The translations under genes and the position numbers were made by a program. The notes under the pieces were generated by a model. That model saw only the letters and a list, made by a program, of their open reading frames with translations. It was not told the DNA's origin and made no database searches. Positions 20,370 through 27,861 of a DNA stretch of 33,077 nt are shown here, piece by piece; position 1 is the stretch's first letter, and each line of letters opens with the position of its first letter. Source of the stretch: Erysipelotrichaceae bacterium (GTDB lineage: Bacteria; Bacillota_I; Bacilli_A; Erysipelotrichales; Erysipelotrichaceae); the NCBI GenBank assembly GCA_017431405.1, contig JAFRLB010000035.1, positions 1 through 33,077 of the forward strand, read 5' to 3'.

Positions 20370-23300
20370 ATGGGAAAGGCACCTGTTAAGAAAGTACTGG
20401 CAGTAAGAAAGTTTAAGGACCGCGGGGAACCGAGAGAGGCATTCAACCGGATTTTTGAAGACGCACAGAAGCACACGGATGAATTCAATGTCATTTCATT
20501 CTATGGCATTGGCGGTTTCGGTAAGACCAGATTGATAAATGAATTAGCCAGACAGCTGGATGACTATAATTCCAATAACAAGTATCTAAGTAAGATAGCT
20601 CATGTAACATATGACTTCTCAAGAGGTACGGAGAAGATGTTTGTTCTTGGCAAGTTAAAGTATCTGCTTAAGAAGCAGGGGCTTTCCTTTCCTTACTATG
20701 ACTCTCTGGAAGCCGCCTATAACATCAAGTGCGGTAACCCGGTATATAAAACGGTTGGTGAAACGGAACTCATTGATAATCCGATGATTTCCATTGTGGC
20801 CAAGTTCATTCCAGGAGCCAGCACAGTTCTTTCTTCCATTAAGACCGGTAAGACCATAATGGAAGAAAGTGCTAAGTATTATAAGAAAATTGAAAAGCTG
20901 TGGAATGTGGACAGTAAGAACCTGGAAAATGAGATCAAGAGCATTGGCAGACTGGAGATAAATGAACTGGAAGACAAGGCTTCATACTATTTTGCCCAGG
21001 ACCTCATCAAGAATACGGAAAGCGTATCTGATGAGTTCAGATTACCGGTAGTCATTTTCTTAGATACATATGAAGAGCTGGTTAACTCCTATAAGTCAGC
21101 CGGTTTTGCCAGTGCCTATGACATCTGGCTAAGAGAAGACATCGTTAAGGCTGTACCTGGTATCTTATGGGTAATAGGCGGCAGAGAAAGACTCAGATGG
21201 GAAGAGGAAGATGACTTCTGGGATGGGGCCATTGATGAGCATGAACTGGGCGACTTGTCCAGGGAAGACTCCTTTGACTTCTTAAGAACAGCCGGCATTC
21301 CTGAAGAACTGCTTGATGACATTTACAGTGTTACCGGGGGAACACCGTTGTTTTTGGATTTGAATGTTACGACATACTATGAGCTTTTATCAGCAGGTAA
21401 GGAAATCACCAGAGACTCGTTTGGTGCCAGTAAACAACAGGTCATCGAAAGATTCTTAAGATATATGAATCAGGAAGACCAGTACATCGCCAAACTCTTA
21501 GCAGTACTGGAAAACTGGAATGATGAAGAGGCTGAAACCATTGGCAAGAAGATTCTGCCGGTTTTTTACCGTGAAAACTATAACAACTTCATTGAGCATA
21601 CCATCATCATAAAGGATAATGAACAGCGCTATTACATGCATCAGCAGGTAAGAAAGGTCATTCTTGATGCCGCAATTGAAGCTGATGCAGAAATGGTTAA
21701 GGACATATATGTGGAGAAAGTCAGATATCTGGCAAACAGAAACTGGCAGAAAATGGATGTTTCAGAACGCTTCTCATTGACCGATAAGGTAATAAGCGTT
21801 TTTGAAAATGCCGGATTCAGTGAGAAGGAGCATAATGAACTCGGTGAGATCTGTTATCCGCTTTTTACTTCATTTCTTAAAGAAGGACTGTATACAAGGA
21901 CATATGAAATATTCCACCGCTTAAGTAAGACCGTTGAACCGGGGTATGCGGGATATTACTCTTATAACTATAATCTGGCCCTGGCCTGCTATAACTGTTC
22001 CCACTACCGTGACTCTGCAGGCATGAGCAATGAAGGCTTACAGGCTGTAAGAAGAGCATACATGGAAACCAGACTGTGGTCGGATCAGAAGCAGGCCTTA
22101 AGATTTGCCGGGCAATGTAAATCACTTGAGGTACAGCTGATCATGGAAACCGGAAAGTTTGAAGAAGCTCTTGAAGTGGCTAAGGAAAACTACAGTAAGG
22201 CTTGTAAAGAATTTGGTGAAGAGAGTAAGGAAGCCATCAGACAACTTAACAGCATCGGTACCGTTTATGATAAAATGGGAAACCATGAAGTGGCCCTGGA
22301 CACATACAGAAAAGTATATGAGCAGGCCTGTAAGGTTTATGGCAGTGAAAACGAGTACACAATGGTTTCTCTCAATAACATTGCCAATGATTATTATAAT
22401 CTTAAGGACTATGTCAGAGCATTTGAAACATATAGCCAGGTTTACACGATCAGAAGCAGATCATTGGGGACTAATGATCGAAGCACATTAAAGTCATTAA
22501 ACGGCATGGCCAGAAGTGAACTGGCAAGCAGTAAGTTTGCAGAAGCAATAGAACTGTATGAAAAGCTCTTGGCAGATTGTGAAGGCATATATGAAGGTAA
22601 TGACTACGGTTTCTTGGAGGAATTGGTTGTTGCCTATAAGCATGTTGATAAGAGTAAGGCCATTGCGACAGCTAAGAAGCTGGCAGATATTTATGAATCA
22701 TACTATGGCAGTAGCCATTATCTGACTATTTCCGCAGTAAGAAGATTGAATGAACTTGAAACAGGTGAATCAGCTGAGGAAAGCCTGAAACAGTTGAAAA
22801 CGTCCATTATAAGTACTGATGACTTGTTTACCGCTGGTGAACACTATGAAACACTTAATGACTATGAAGCAGCCATAAAGTATTATTTACAGAACTATCA
22901 GATTTTATCCGCTTCATCTGCTTTATATAAGACGCAGGAAAGTGAAATGCTACTTACCATCAGTAAGCTTGGGGCATGTTACTTCTGGAGTGAACATTTT
23001 ACGGAAGCGCTCCGTTATTATGAAGAGTATTATGATTACTGTCTTAAGCATGAGGGAGTTACGAGTCAGAATACCTTACTGGGGTTAACTAATGTCTGTC
23101 AATGTCTGGAGTTTTCCGGGAAATATGACAGATTACTGGATGAATTACCTAAGCTGTTGGAAGCTTACAGCGATGATGAGAAGATGTTCTACCGGCAGAA
23201 GTTTGTCTTGGCCTTCGCCTATCTGATGAAAGACAGGAAAGATGAATGTTACAGGGAACTTAGGGACATCTATGAAAACAGAGAAGTCGTAGAAGAAGGA

Positions 23301-23489
23301 AGCGATAAGGCCAATGAGTATGAACACATGGCAATGGTAAGAGAAAACCCGACTCTCATTTTCTCTCAGGAAACGATCATGTTGAAAGAGATCATCAGGT
23401 TTACTGAAGAAAGGGATAAGGCACTTAATGAATTCTATTCTGAAGCTCTTGAACAACGCCGAAAGGTCATTGAAACTCTGACAAAGTAA
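20370..23489 (+). CDS. STAND NTPase with tetratricopeptide repeats
   Basis: A 1039-residue NLR-like protein. The P-loop is YGIGGFGKT (46-53), Walker B is PVVIFLD with Asp232, GGRERLRW (270-277) fits a sensor arginine, and GGTPLFL (323-329) fits the GxP motif of the STAND winged-helix linker. From about 560 onward it is helical. The clearest repeats (about 600-780) are 42-residue kinesin-light-chain-type TPRs: LNSIGTVYDKMGNHEVALDTY, then LNNIANDYYNLKDYVRAFETY, then LNGMARSELASSKFAEAIELY. Nothing precedes the NTPase, so no effector domain is visible. STAND proteins oligomerise on ligand binding and serve in regulation or phage defence. GAGG lies 9 bases before the ATG. It may be co-transcribed with the GH13 gene. 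Confidence 0.8.
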   Translation: MGKAPVKKVLAVRKFKDRGEPREAFNRIFEDAQKHTDEFNVISFYGIGGFGKTRLINELARQLDDYNSNNKYLSKIAHVTYDFSRGTEKMFVLGKLKYLLKKQGLSFPYYDSLEAAYNIKCGNPVYKTVGETELIDNPMISIVAKFIPGASTVLSSIKTGKTIMEESAKYYKKIEKLWNVDSKNLENEIKSIGRLEINELEDKASYYFAQDLIKNTESVSDEFRLPVVIFLDTYEELVNSYKSAGFASAYDIWLREDIVKAVPGILWVIGGRERLRWEEEDDFWDGAIDEHELGDLSREDSFDFLRTAGIPEELLDDIYSVTGGTPLFLDLNVTTYYELLSAGKEITRDSFGASKQQVIERFLRYMNQEDQYIAKLLAVLENWNDEEAETIGKKILPVFYRENYNNFIEHTIIIKDNEQRYYMHQQVRKVILDAAIEADAEMVKDIYVEKVRYLANRNWQKMDVSERFSLTDKVISVFENAGFSEKEHNELGEICYPLFTSFLKEGLYTRTYEIFHRLSKTVEPGYAGYYSYNYNLALACYNCSHYRDSAGMSNEGLQAVRRAYMETRLWSDQKQALRFAGQCKSLEVQLIMETGKFEEALEVAKENYSKACKEFGEESKEAIRQLNSIGTVYDKMGNHEVALDTYRKVYEQACKVYGSENEYTMVSLNNIANDYYNLKDYVRAFETYSQVYTIRSRSLGTNDRSTLKSLNGMARSELASSKFAEAIELYEKLLADCEGIYEGNDYGFLEELVVAYKHVDKSKAIATAKKLADIYESYYGSSHYLTISAVRRLNELETGESAEESLKQLKTSIISTDDLFTAGEHYETLNDYEAAIKYYLQNYQILSASSALYKTQESEMLLTISKLGACYFWSEHFTEALRYYEEYYDYCLKHEGVTSQNTLLGLTNVCQCLEFSGKYDRLLDELPKLLEAYSDDEKMFYRQKFVLAFAYLMKDRKDECYRELRDIYENREVVEEGSDKANEYEHMAMVRENPTLIFSQETIMLKEIIRFTEERDKALNEFYSEALEQRRKVIETLTK

Positions 23490-23606: not shown

Positions 23607-23641
23607 AACCCCTTGATCAGATCTTAGCTGATTAAGGGGTT
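23607..23641 (-). terminator. Terminator of the BMP / phosphoesterase operon
   Basis: AACCCCTT (23607-23614) pairs with AAGGGGTT (23634-23641), extended inward by ATCAG/CTGAT. On the minus strand it is followed by TTTTAT. It lies 16 bases past the phosphoesterase stop. Confidence 0.8.
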
Positions 23642-23656
23642 ATTCTTAAATTTCAG

Positions 23657-24316
23657 TTACATTAATTGTTCCCAGACTTTTTTCTGGTATCTGTCGGAGA
23701 AATAAGTGTGCTTATAGTCGATTGGTTCAATTTCAAGATCCATTTTGTCGCAGCAGTTAATTAATGTGGTGCCTGAAGGATGTTCTATTTCTCTCTGGAA
23801 GTCACCGTATCTTTCATGAACATGGCCATATAACATGTACTTAGGCTTATATACATTTAACAGCTCTTCGAAGCACTCAAAGCCCTTATGCGGTAAGTCT
23901 TCTCTGTCCCCATAATGTCTTAATGGGGCATGGGTTACCAATACGTCAAATCCACCCATTACCTTTAAGGCTCTTCTGAGCTTCCTTATTCTCTTTTTCA
24001 TTTCCTCTTCGGTAAACATGCACTCGCCATCCTTATAGCGTAAACTGCCTCCTAAACCTAAAAATCTGACGCCGTTAAAGTCATAGATCTTATCTTCAAT
24101 GTTGAAGCAGCCTGCCGGTGGGTTGGTAAGGTAACTTAAGTCATGGTTACCCTTGATGTATAACAGAGGCTTCTTGACCATTGTTACTAAGAAATCCAGG
24201 TATTCTCTGTCTAAATCACCGCAGGAAACTACCAGATCTACGTCCTTTACCATCTTAGGCTGGAAATAGTTCCATAAAGCATCATTCTCTTCGTCCGCTA
24301 CTGCCAGTATTTTCAT
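23657..24316 (-). CDS. Calcineurin-like metallophosphoesterase
   Basis: A 219-residue enzyme with the metallophosphoesterase motifs GDLDRE (33-38), GNHD (56-59), THAP (129-132) and GHVH (164-167). The first motif, usually DxH, reads VADEEN, with Asp8 but Glu in place of His; similar variants occur in other Firmicutes members. It has no signal peptide and is cytoplasmic. Substrates in the family range from nucleotides to phosphodiesters. The start overlaps the stop of the BMP-domain gene by 4 bases (ATGA), so the two are translationally coupled and probably act on a shared ligand. That last point is inference. Confidence 0.85.
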   Translation of the reverse strand: MKILAVADEENDALWNYFQPKMVKDVDLVVSCGDLDREYLDFLVTMVKKPLLYIKGNHDLSYLTNPPAGCFNIEDKIYDFNGVRFLGLGGSLRYKDGECMFTEEEMKKRIRKLRRALKVMGGFDVLVTHAPLRHYGDREDLPHKGFECFEELLNVYKPKYMLYGHVHERYGDFQREIEHPSGTTLINCCDKMDLEIEPIDYKHTYFSDRYQKKVWEQLM

Positions 24317-26217
24317 TGTTGTTTTTCTCCAATTATTCCACTTATTTCAAATAATGCCTTACCATGTTCATCAAGACTTTCATATTCAGGCATTTCCCCA
24401 ACTACATTGTCATTGAGCCAGTCCATGGCAATGATCTTATGATCACTTAATCTGCCTGACTTCTGTTTTCTGATTACCATGTTCTGACTTCTTAATTCAC
24501 CGTCAAACGGTGAGATGAGTTCTTTCTTCAACAGATCCTTATAGGTGCTTAAGGTCTTTCTGGTATAGTAGGAAAGATCCTTGGAAACCTTTATGTTAAG
24601 AACATCGTGTGATAAGCCCCACCACAAGAACAGGGACTGATCATTGTTGATGTTATAGTCAAAAGTACCGTTGGCAATAGGAGCTACGATCTTTTCGTAA
24701 TACTTGCCCCAGTTCCATATCGGTGCACCATAGTTTGTGATTTTATCATCCTCTAATTTGAAAACACCGAATTCTCTGTTTTCAGAATTTGGTTCTTCCA
24801 CATCATAACCGCTGATGATGGAAATGTTTTCCTTCTTTATTTCCTTCCTCCAGTCATCGTTTACCCAATAGACATGAACCTTTATCTGTGGGTCAATTGC
24901 GGCTGCGCCTAAGGCAAAGGCATTCAGATTGGAAATTGTACCATAGATTGGGTAGTCAGTCAGATAGGCAATCTTGTGATTATCACATAACTGAGCAGCT
25001 AAGATTCCTAACAGGAACTTAACTTCAAACAGTCGGCCGTAATAGGTTCTGACCAGGTTACTGCTGGTGTTAATGACACAGTCAAAGAAGATTACGTCCT
25101 TATGTTCAGCGGCGCATCTTACTATGGTATTAAAATGTGCAGCTGAGGTCGCAAAGACGACCTTGGCACCTTTTTCAATCGCATCTTCTACGGCTGCGAC
25201 TATTTCCTTTTCGCTGTCACAGTCAACATAGCTCCAGGTTTCCACAATGCCGTTCATTGTTTCCTGAAGATACTGTCTGCCTGCTTCATGTTCCCTGTCC
25301 CAACCGGATACTGATGGGGAACCGGCTAACAGGAAGGCGATTTTTAGTGGCTTGTCTTCACTGTATGAAGGACCTCTTGATAAGAGATTTAATATGTAAT
25401 TCTTCTGTTCAACATCCTGGTTAAGAACCATGGATTCAGCCGGTCTTGATTCTACCAGTAATTCATTCCAAATGTTATGAACACGGTTTTCCAGCTTGGC
25501 ACCGCTGATGTCCAAAACTGAATCAAAGCTGTAAATGCTCAGATACTTCAGGAAGGCATCGGCAGCGCTGAAATCAAGGTTCTGGCCGCCGTTTTCATAG
25601 AAGACCTTGGAGAATCTGAAGTAAGCTCCTTCAAGTGATCTGACTAAGTCGCTAGGCCACTTGTCAGTCATGTTCATCTGCATCATTCTGGCCAGCTTAT
25701 GGTAGCTGCCTTTTCTGGTGAAGTGAATTTCATAAATAGGAGCTACGTTATAGAAGTCCAGGAATTCATAGTATACTTCTGTCTCCGGTGTTCTCTTTGG
25801 CAAGATTCTTGTTACGGAAGCGTATATGGTTGGGTTACCAAGATACTTCATGACGGAAACACGCTTGTTTCCTTCTTCAATGTAGAACATGCCCATGTAT
25901 TCGTAGGCCTTTACCGGATCGGTAATGCCGCTTTCAATCTGGTATTCAAACAGACTTGACCACTTATAGGCGAATTCACTGTTCTTATCGGCGATAGGCA
26001 TGAAGTTAGAGGCAAAGCTGTTGGCTCTGCTCTTGGTCTTGGTACCTATGACAAGTGATAAAGGTATTTCAATATTACCGACTGGTTCGGTGTTGTTGGC
26101 AATCTCTGTCGTTAATAAATCATCTAAGACAGGCAGGTATGGATCCCGGTTCTTGTTGACATCCTGACGGAACTGTCGGTCACCGGCTTTTTTGGCGTTA
26201 ATGTAATCTTCAATCAA
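24313..26217 (-). CDS. Cytoplasmic ParB-like / BMP-domain fusion protein
   Basis: About 634 residues from a TTG start at 26217. GGGAGGT lies 8 bases before it, whereas an in-frame ATG at 26257-26259 lies upstream of the promoter's -10 box and cannot be in the transcript. The N-terminal part carries a ParB/sulfiredoxin-like stretch (DPVKAYEYMGMFYIEEGNKR, about 100-119). A helical linker leads to a BMP/PnrA-type periplasmic-binding domain (about 290-550, PLKIAFLLAGSPSVSGWDREHEAG, DVIFFDC, GILAAQL). There is no signal peptide or lipobox, unlike transporter BMP proteins, so it should act as a cytoplasmic sensor, perhaps of a nucleoside. It is coupled to a phosphoesterase gene. Confidence 0.75.
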   Translation of the reverse strand: MIEDYINAKKAGDRQFRQDVNKNRDPYLPVLDDLLTTEIANNTEPVGNIEIPLSLVIGTKTKSRANSFASNFMPIADKNSEFAYKWSSLFEYQIESGITDPVKAYEYMGMFYIEEGNKRVSVMKYLGNPTIYASVTRILPKRTPETEVYYEFLDFYNVAPIYEIHFTRKGSYHKLARMMQMNMTDKWPSDLVRSLEGAYFRFSKVFYENGGQNLDFSAADAFLKYLSIYSFDSVLDISGAKLENRVHNIWNELLVESRPAESMVLNQDVEQKNYILNLLSRGPSYSEDKPLKIAFLLAGSPSVSGWDREHEAGRQYLQETMNGIVETWSYVDCDSEKEIVAAVEDAIEKGAKVVFATSAAHFNTIVRCAAEHKDVIFFDCVINTSSNLVRTYYGRLFEVKFLLGILAAQLCDNHKIAYLTDYPIYGTISNLNAFALGAAAIDPQIKVHVYWVNDDWRKEIKKENISIISGYDVEEPNSENREFGVFKLEDDKITNYGAPIWNWGKYYEKIVAPIANGTFDYNINNDQSLFLWWGLSHDVLNIKVSKDLSYYTRKTLSTYKDLLKKELISPFDGELRSQNMVIRKQKSGRLSDHKIIAMDWLNDNVVGEMPEYESLDEHGKALFEISGIIGEKQQ

Positions 26218-26247
26218 GGTTTTTACCTCCCTTCTGTCTGTGCTTGA

Positions 26248-26346: not shown

Positions 26347-27861
26347 ATGGAATATTTCTGGTATGTACTGGCAGCCATTGGTGCAGGAGTCGGGACAGGT
26401 TTGGCCGGGCTTTCAGCTGCGACGGTAATGGTTCCGATTCTGATCGTATTATGTCCTTCATTTGCGTCAGAAAACGGGGCATACCAGGAAACCGCCATTG
26501 CCTTGGCTTCTGACATCTTAGGCTCAGCAGTTACGGCCTATACCTATATCAAACATAAGAACATTGACTTGAAGAGAGGCTGGATAATGATGGCCTGTAT
26601 TTTAGTCATGTGTACGGTTGGCTCCTATGCGGCCTTTAAGGCCGGTAATGTGGTATTGGGCGGCTTTACCTTGTTCCTTACTTTTTTCATTGGTATCCGT
26701 TTTTTGGTTAAGCCTGATACAAGCAGAGAAAACCAGCCTGATAAGGGAAGTAAGCTTGATGTAAAAGGCATAATAATATCATTATTCTTTGGCCTTACTA
26801 TTGGCTTTGGCACGGGATTTGTCGGTACCGGCGGTGGCATGATGATGTTGGTAGTATTTACAGTCTTCTTAAGCATGGAATTAAAGACAGCCGTAGGTAC
26901 AAGTACTTTCATCATGACTTTTACAGCCTTGATTGCTTCGGTAAGTCACATCCTGATTCACCCGGCAATATTATTGGAAAAATGGCATGTAATGTTAATA
27001 TGCATAGTTGTTACAACCATTTCCAGCTTATTATCAGCGCGCTTTGCCAACAGGGTAAGTAACAGAGTAATTGGTTTAACGACCGGGGCAGTATTAACCG
27101 TGTTAGGCGCTACAATGATATTCTTAAACTACCGTGATAAGATCTTAGGCAATCAGTTATTCATGGCTACGGCCATAACATTCTGCCGTTACTTTGTCTA
27201 CATTGCCTCACTGGCACTGACATTAATAGTCATTCATATCTTATCTAAGATACCGAAGGACATCTTCCGCAAGTTGTTACATATCGCAGCCTTTACTTCT
27301 TCCATCTATGTGGCCTTAAGAGGGGAAGGCTGGATGGCTGAATCTCTGACTCTGATCATATTTGGCTTAGTGGTCTGGCCGCTACTGAATCTGGCTGAAA
27401 AGTGGTCTGGTTATAAGAATCTCTTTGTGGAAAAGAAAAAGGGCGAAGTTAAGACCAGTTTACTGTTACTGTTCATTTCTCAGGGAATCTTTCTGGCCAT
27501 TGCCAAGGGCATATTAGGCAAGACCTACATATTGGTTGCCGCAACAAGTGCCTGGGGTTTGGGTGACATAGCCGCAGCCTGGGTAGGCAGGCCATTAGGC
27601 AAGCACAAGGTGCATCTGAAACTGGCTGACCACAATAAGTCATGGGAAGGAAGTGCGGCAATGTTTGCGGTCGCAATGATTGCCTGCTTTGTTTCTCTGA
27701 CATTACTTACTGACTTTACACTTGGTATCAGAATAATTGTTTCCATAATTATCGGGGTTGTTTCCAGCTTCTCGGAAATGTGCAGTAAGAATGGCGATGA
27801 TACGGTAATCGTACCTTTGATGAACCTCATTGTTCTGGCAATACTATCAATCTGGTTATGA
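26347..27861 (+). CDS. TauE/SafE permease fused to a dolichol/phytol-kinase-like domain
   Basis: A 504-residue polytopic protein joining two families. Residues 1-265 form a TauE/SafE-type permease (GAGVGTGLAGLSAATVMVP and the second-repeat motif GFGTGFVGTGGGMMM at about 153-167), usually linked to sulfite or organosulfonate export. Residues 280-504 resemble CTP-dependent lipid-alcohol kinases (dolichol/phytol kinase, CdsA-like): FRKLLHIAAF, GLGDIAAAWVGRPLGKHK (405-421), NKSWEGS (430-436) and SKNGDDTVIVPL. The frame is continuous, with no sign of a missed stop. GGGAGGT precedes the ATG. It diverges from the BMP/phosphoesterase operon. Confidence 0.75.
   Translation: MEYFWYVLAAIGAGVGTGLAGLSAATVMVPILIVLCPSFASENGAYQETAIALASDILGSAVTAYTYIKHKNIDLKRGWIMMACILVMCTVGSYAAFKAGNVVLGGFTLFLTFFIGIRFLVKPDTSRENQPDKGSKLDVKGIIISLFFGLTIGFGTGFVGTGGGMMMLVVFTVFLSMELKTAVGTSTFIMTFTALIASVSHILIHPAILLEKWHVMLICIVVTTISSLLSARFANRVSNRVIGLTTGAVLTVLGATMIFLNYRDKILGNQLFMATAITFCRYFVYIASLALTLIVIHILSKIPKDIFRKLLHIAAFTSSIYVALRGEGWMAESLTLIIFGLVVWPLLNLAEKWSGYKNLFVEKKKGEVKTSLLLLFISQGIFLAIAKGILGKTYILVAATSAWGLGDIAAAWVGRPLGKHKVHLKLADHNKSWEGSAAMFAVAMIACFVSLTLLTDFTLGIRIIVSIIIGVVSSFSEMCSKNGDDTVIVPLMNLIVLAILSIWL

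Follow-up and report, generated by a model that had tools for sequence, protein, structure and literature searches.

Proteins of the ParB/Noc CTPase fold have recently been surveyed with PF02195 at its gathering cut-off (--cut_ga), and 11 of the 28 proteins purified bound a nucleoside triphosphate (NTP), none being detectable for many of the others (Kaljevic et al. 2025, PMC12704722), a result that counts against assuming NTP binding for the N-terminal domain (NtD) described below. Members of the fold bind CTP, ATP or GTP, with a specificity that is not predictable, and BMP and phosphoesterase partners are not named in the text of that survey (PMC12704722). In the BMP family, the guanine ligand of AtzT is contacted by Ser97, the backbone of Phe98, Glu165, Asn218 and Asn220, and is sandwiched between Tyr45 and Trp194 (PMC6834077). 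The gene pair reported here draws on both groups as well as on the calcineurin-like metallophosphoesterases (MPEs). The BMP fold also serves regulation, not transport, in the Med-type protein 2hqb, which we take to lack both a ParB-fold domain and a phosphoesterase. This protein is entered in the PDB as a transcriptional activator of comK from Bacillus halodurans, and it matches the BMP domain studied here with a Z of 22.4.

The window, that is the whole stretch of 33,077 nucleotides analysed, carries on its minus strand gene A (24313..26217), which is predicted to encode a 634-amino-acid cytoplasmic protein with an NtD of the ParB/sulfiredoxin (Srx) fold followed by a BMP domain, and gene B (23657..24316), which encodes a 219-amino-acid calcineurin-like MPE (PF00149, 2.1e-12). 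Gene A starts with TTG at 26217, eight bases downstream of the SD sequence AGGGAGG (26226-26232), and its TGA stop lies within CAATGAAAA, sharing bases with the gene B ATG in an ATGA overlap (24313..24316, minus strand). The two genes and their overlap are as an earlier note on this DNA had described them, and the same four-base overlap is present in many relatives. The genome of the window holds one copy each of gene A and gene B, and no NCBIfam model scores above its cut-off for either product. Each domain comes from a known superfamily; the combination and the pairing are apparently undescribed, as neither was found in a literature search, in which no paper joined the BMP family with a metallophosphoesterase (subscription journals were outside its coverage).

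The link between the two genes is borne out by their co-occurrence. Of 150 Lachnospiraceae genomes, 54 have the NtD, and the same 54 and no others have a full-length MPE (a 101-residue MPE fragment occurs in one more); of 145 Erysipelotrichaceae genomes, 24 have the NtD, among which are all 22 with an MPE; in the two remaining carriers the MPE is either masked by N (G028) or truly absent (G092, an orphan). The hypergeometric P is about 4e-42 for Lachnospiraceae and about 5e-24 for Erysipelotrichaceae, values that assume independent genomes, are overstated by kinship and should be read for direction only. The pairing thus proved strong in the kind of survey that the earlier note had proposed. 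An MPE lies nearby in 73 of 79 named-species loci; five of the other six stop at a contig edge, and in the sixth (L051, genome G138) the MPE is present but unlinked. Retention of the MPE on another contig was seen in G138, G439, G470 and G535, and the pair is also retained in G456, with the MPE on the opposite strand. In L179 (G554:C66), which has a very long tree branch, the MPE is upstream and the NtD-BMP frame opens directly after its stop. The pair tolerates insertions, with a 248-codon gene between NtD-BMP and MPE in L093 (2615-4006) and two genes between them in L098. That gene A and gene B act together is considered almost certain. No family other than the MPE is conserved beside the NtD across the 79 loci, ParA included, and no third conserved gene was found, the largest neighbour cluster covering 7 of 79 loci and looking like spurious high-GC frames.

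The gene pair is common in bacteria of the human and ruminant gut, with carriers numbering in the hundreds, and occurs in about a third of the sampled Lachnospiraceae and more than half of one Coriobacteriia family (NtD in 81 of 140 genomes). Among Erysipelotrichales as a whole, 65 of 244 genomes carry the NtD, and in 295 genomes scanned from the phylum of the window members occurred only in the window's own family. The distribution given here is that within Bacillota and Coriobacteriia, a scan of genome contigs having retained the 80 highest-ranking among more than 580 relatives. A viral or mobile origin was considered and rejected: an IMG/VR pattern scan returned no relative, and matches in a phage collection were to unannotated faecal contigs that are probably bacterial.

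The most informative finding is a natural fusion. At 14 loci, first seen as open frames of 463-474 codons in a scan of the order Erysipelotrichales, the NtD is joined directly to the MPE by a linker of about 7 residues, with the BMP domain absent; the 12 fusions placed in a quick tree form one clade (100% SH-aLRT), mostly of a single genus. Since gene A lies upstream of gene B, loss of the BMP-coding segment would yield such a fusion directly. An intermediate arrangement is seen in Atopobiaceae (L154), where a lone NtD without BMP overlaps an MPE in addition to a normal pair, although its placement near the fusions is uncertain. The existence of BMP-less fusions indicates that the core unit is the ParB-fold domain plus the MPE, with BMP as a detachable accessory input, which corrects a reading centred on the BMP domain; from the fusions it is also predicted that the ParB-fold domain and the MPE touch each other.

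No Pfam family matches residues 1-280 of the gene A protein. PF02195 (ParB_N) does not match the window protein and matches 7 of 86 members, with a best E of 0.021 that is below the cut-off, so that a survey based on PF02195 (PMC12704722) would miss this family. The NtD was folded by itself with AlphaFold2 from an 86-sequence alignment, giving a model with a pLDDT of 95.6 in which residues 43-139 (25801..26091, minus strand) form the ParB/Srx-fold domain by Foldseek and VIA comparison, followed by a helical part (residues 140-263; 25429..25800, minus strand). The NtD profile found just two matches in the PDB, sulfiredoxin (E 0.037) and ParB (E 0.17), each weak alone, both covering the GI..P......GNKR region and aligned at GNKR. 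Foldseek placed the model closest to Noc (E 1.3e-4), ParB (5.5e-4) and sulfiredoxin (9.3e-4), and VIA gave Z values of 8.7 for ParB 7bnk (2.2 A over 78 residues, model residues 47-138), 8.6 for Srx 6ky4, 7.3 for PadC, 7.0 for SerK 5x0b and 6.7 for SbnI 5ujd. The first 32 VIA entries all match the same stretch and are named ParB, Noc, Srx, PadC, KorB, SerK or SbnI, bar two structural-genomics entries, 1vk1 (a close SerK relative) and 2hwj. The Z values are moderate, and the assignment of the modelled domain to the ParB/Srx fold is firm because fold, motif position and the two sole PDB profile matches agree. The ParB/Srx-like character that the earlier note had read from the N-terminal part with its GNKR therefore survives both profile and fold searches. 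As in the ParB/Noc family, the NtD combines this fold with a box I-like helix and loop, a GxxR motif and fusion to a lineage-specific domain; it differs from that family in scoring below the PF02195 cut-off, in lacking ParA and in having BMP and phosphoesterase partners.

The helix and loop resembling box I (C motif) span residues 81-101 (EFAYKWSSLFEYQIESGITDP; 25915..25977, minus strand; modelled helix 81-96) and are placed by conservation and by alignment with Srx and ParB, and the box II-like (P motif, GxxR) EGNKR, at residues 115-119 (25861..25875, minus strand), is placed by conservation. Whether BMP is present or absent, E81, K85, W86, E115, G116, K118 and S121 are identical in all 98 NtD sequences compared, among which G97 is also invariant, R64 essentially so, and R119 and the Asn of GNKR are each kept in 97. 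EGNKR is invariant in the 84 non-fused members, and the full motif is present in 13 of the 14 fusions. Near-invariance of this polar set across 98 sequences argues for nucleotide binding or catalysis, rather than for a scaffold that has lost its function. A single sequence departs from the motif, a second NtD-MPE fusion paralogue in G819 (L171, 436-1836), which reads EGEKT and may be a pseudo-switch. In three Coriobacteriia genomes (G629, G630 and G631), a single open frame contains the NtD match split into 2-144 and 145/146-255 with a gap of about 70-75 bases, so that about 24 residues are inserted behind position 144.

The BMP (PnrA-like, AtzT-like) ligand-binding domain occupies residues 287-608 of the gene A protein (24394..25359, minus strand), as given by Pfam (PF02608, residues 292-454, 60.6 bits against a cut-off of 24.1) and VIA. 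It is nearest to AtzT/3s99 (Z 32; for AtzT 6pii, Z 32.6 and 2.5 A over 305 residues), whereas PnrA, Lbp and BmpD reach Z 22-24. No signal peptide or lipobox was found in 86 gene A relatives, in agreement with the earlier note: their most hydrophobic stretch of 10 residues within the first 40 does not exceed 1.58 on the Kyte-Doolittle scale, compared with 2.6-3.2 in the same measure for four canonical BMP lipoproteins encoded by this genome and by genomes related to it. Judged by the absent signal peptide, the gene A product is predicted to be cytoplasmic. An internal contrast is provided by the genome of the window itself, which elsewhere (L002) encodes a canonical BMP lipoprotein adjoining an ABC ATPase. 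Unlike AtzT, the gene A domain is thus predicted to be cytoplasmic and has no transporter. Where AtzT has Tyr45, 90 of the 95 family members compared have another aromatic residue, Trp, and 53 of them keep Ser97, but Glu165 is replaced by Gly in 90 of 95, the positions of Asn218 and Asn220 are variable with the Asn pair lost, and that of Trp194 falls within a shortened loop. The alignment indicates that the cleft is kept and the guanine site of AtzT is not. A purine or nucleoside is a possible ligand, and the nucleoside favoured in the earlier note is not yet supported.

The gene B product matches Pfam Metallophos with 48.3 bits (cut-off 21.5), and PF00149 was matched by all 20 members examined. 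In a 92-sequence alignment, motif I (residues 8-10; 24287..24295, minus strand) reads DxE in place of the canonical DxH, with D in all 92 sequences and E at position 10 in 74, His not being among the residues listed there. The motifs GNHD (residues 56-59; 24140..24151, minus strand) and GHVH (residues 164-167; 23816..23827, minus strand) are, respectively, invariant and invariant at G164, H165 and H167, and the invariant residues of the alignment include D8, D34, N57, H58, H129, H165 and H167. Gene B shares the GDL, GNHD, THxP and GHxH motifs with calcineurin-like MPEs (MPPED2, Dbr1, Icc-like) and differs from them in its motif I, in the conserved D137, H143 and Y170, and in having a partner protein. 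Apart from the motif I His, every metal ligand is invariant, and the MPE is probably active, its metal site being altered. In the PDB, the MPE profile comes closest to MPPED2 (7e-6) and the RNA lariat debranching enzyme Dbr1 (7e-5), both too distant for naming a substrate.

The computed basis for a mechanism consists of the domains, the cytoplasmic location, the near-obligate pairing, the BMP-less fusions, and the near-invariance of both the nucleotide motif and the metal ligands. It is proposed that the ParB/Srx-fold domain would bind an NTP through GNKR (GxxR) and dock on the MPE, also when the two proteins are not fused, and that the metal site of the MPE would hydrolyse a phosphoester. The BMP domain, now cytoplasmic instead of displayed on the cell surface and outside any transporter, would bind a small molecule in the cleft of its two lobes, and lobe closure would alter the control that the ParB-fold domain exerts on the MPE. 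This mechanism as a whole, an NTP-binding ParB-fold regulator docked on an MPE and gated by a cytoplasmic BMP ligand, is given about even chances of being right. Against it, the receptor is dispensable in the lineages with BMP-less fusions, so that the central role of the system may be something other than sensing; further, no riboswitch reached the gathering score in the window or 43 other loci (tRNAs only), no neighbour gives a hint, and the ligand class of the BMP domain is not narrowed because the ligand contacts of AtzT are unconserved. The broader reading that the relocated BMP receptor gates an NTP switch of the ParB fold, which turns a dedicated phosphoesterase on or off, possibly to control a signalling nucleotide, and that this is a new receptor-enzyme class of gut Bacillota and Coriobacteriia, is tentative. 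In gene A, a receptor domain of transporters would have become a cytoplasmic input, the ParB-fold repertoire is widened past the reach of PF02195-based surveys, and the question is raised of whether an NTP, a small ligand or both act as the switch of the phosphoesterase. The earlier reading is supported in part: it stands for the cytoplasmic BMP protein, the ParB/Srx part and the phosphoesterase link, it falls short so far on the nucleoside ligand, and the core is placed in the ParB-fold domain plus the MPE.

The main rival to the NTP-regulator mechanism, itself rather unlikely, is a kinase/phosphatase pair, in which the ParB/Srx-fold domain would phosphorylate a small molecule or protein and the MPE remove the same phosphate, with BMP holding or sensing the substrate and the fusion representing a two-way enzyme. 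Phosphorylation is known from the fold (in SerK, in SbnI and as a step of sulfiredoxin catalysis), and these three proteins, with which the NtD shares fold and GxxR, recur in its structural matches; an acid precedes this motif both here (EGNKR) and in SerK (DGHHR), and the invariant E81, K85 and E115 look catalytic. The NtD differs from sulfiredoxin in having Asn (GNKR) at the position of the catalytic Cys (GCHR). Against the rival, the structural match to ParB/Noc is equal or better, and the catalytic Glu30 of SerK is not placeable on the gene A protein. A profile-profile comparison with SerK by hhalign gave no match to accompany the fold match (Z 7.0).

A housekeeping role in metabolite repair or salvage, in which the gene A protein would present a modified nucleotide or phosphoester to the MPE without sensing and BMP would be a substrate-capturing lobe, is considered quite unlikely. 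It fits the mostly single copy, the mobile context not seen, the dispensability of BMP in the fusions and the position of the Collinsella pair beside rplA/rplK/nusG/tuf, but the patchy occurrence in Erysipelotrichales (65/244) and Lachnospiraceae (54/150) means that the pair is not essential. Very doubtful is a DNA-linked role, in which the NtD would act as a CTP-dependent DNA clamp like ParB, and the MPE as a nuclease or DNA-end processing enzyme under control of the BMP ligand. The DNA-binding clamps ParB and Noc are the best structural matches, the Foldseek alignment to ParB spans the helices past the NtD core (with a large rmsd), and the MPE profile weakly reaches the debranching enzyme; against this, the VIA alignment to ParB is confined to residues 47-138 and does not extend to the helices, no clear HTH was recognised in the NtD, and neither ParA nor any other conserved neighbour accompanies the pair. 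An anti-phage defence pair is highly improbable: the PADLOC model PDC-S10 matches the window MPE (E 1.5e-17) and all 20 relatives, yet it is a candidate model only, may be a general MPE model and has no literature match, and conserved defence neighbours are lacking. The NCBI annotation as an orphan ABC-transporter binding protein, for which the Pfam BMP match speaks, and which is used in Collinsella and files the gene A family under the misleading 'BMP family ABC transporter substrate-binding protein', has next to no chance of being right and is rejected, being largely refuted, barring export of the protein by an unknown route, by the absent signal peptide, the N-terminal addition of 280 residues and the lack of conserved transporter genes (of 79 loci, 5 have an ABC ATPase at a distance of up to 5 kb, and no homologue with a signal peptide was found beside ABC transporter genes).

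In the window, the gene pair is flanked by two plus-strand genes. Convergent with it, at 20370-23489, lies a gene for a 1039-amino-acid STAND-type NTPase with TPR repeats (FxSxx_TPR-like; weak NB-ARC/nSTAND match, no PADLOC match), and an inverted repeat, AACCCCTTGATCAG/CTGATTAAGGGGTT, occupies 23608-23641 between the two convergent genes, where it was read by eye and does not appear in the terminator scan. Divergent from gene A, at 26347-27861, is a gene for a TauE/SafE permease (residues 7-257), for which Pfam gives TauE only and whose C-terminal half, by eye, resembles a membrane domain of the CDP-diglyceride-synthase/polyprenol-kinase type (GLGDIAAAWVGRPLGKHK...NKSWEGS).
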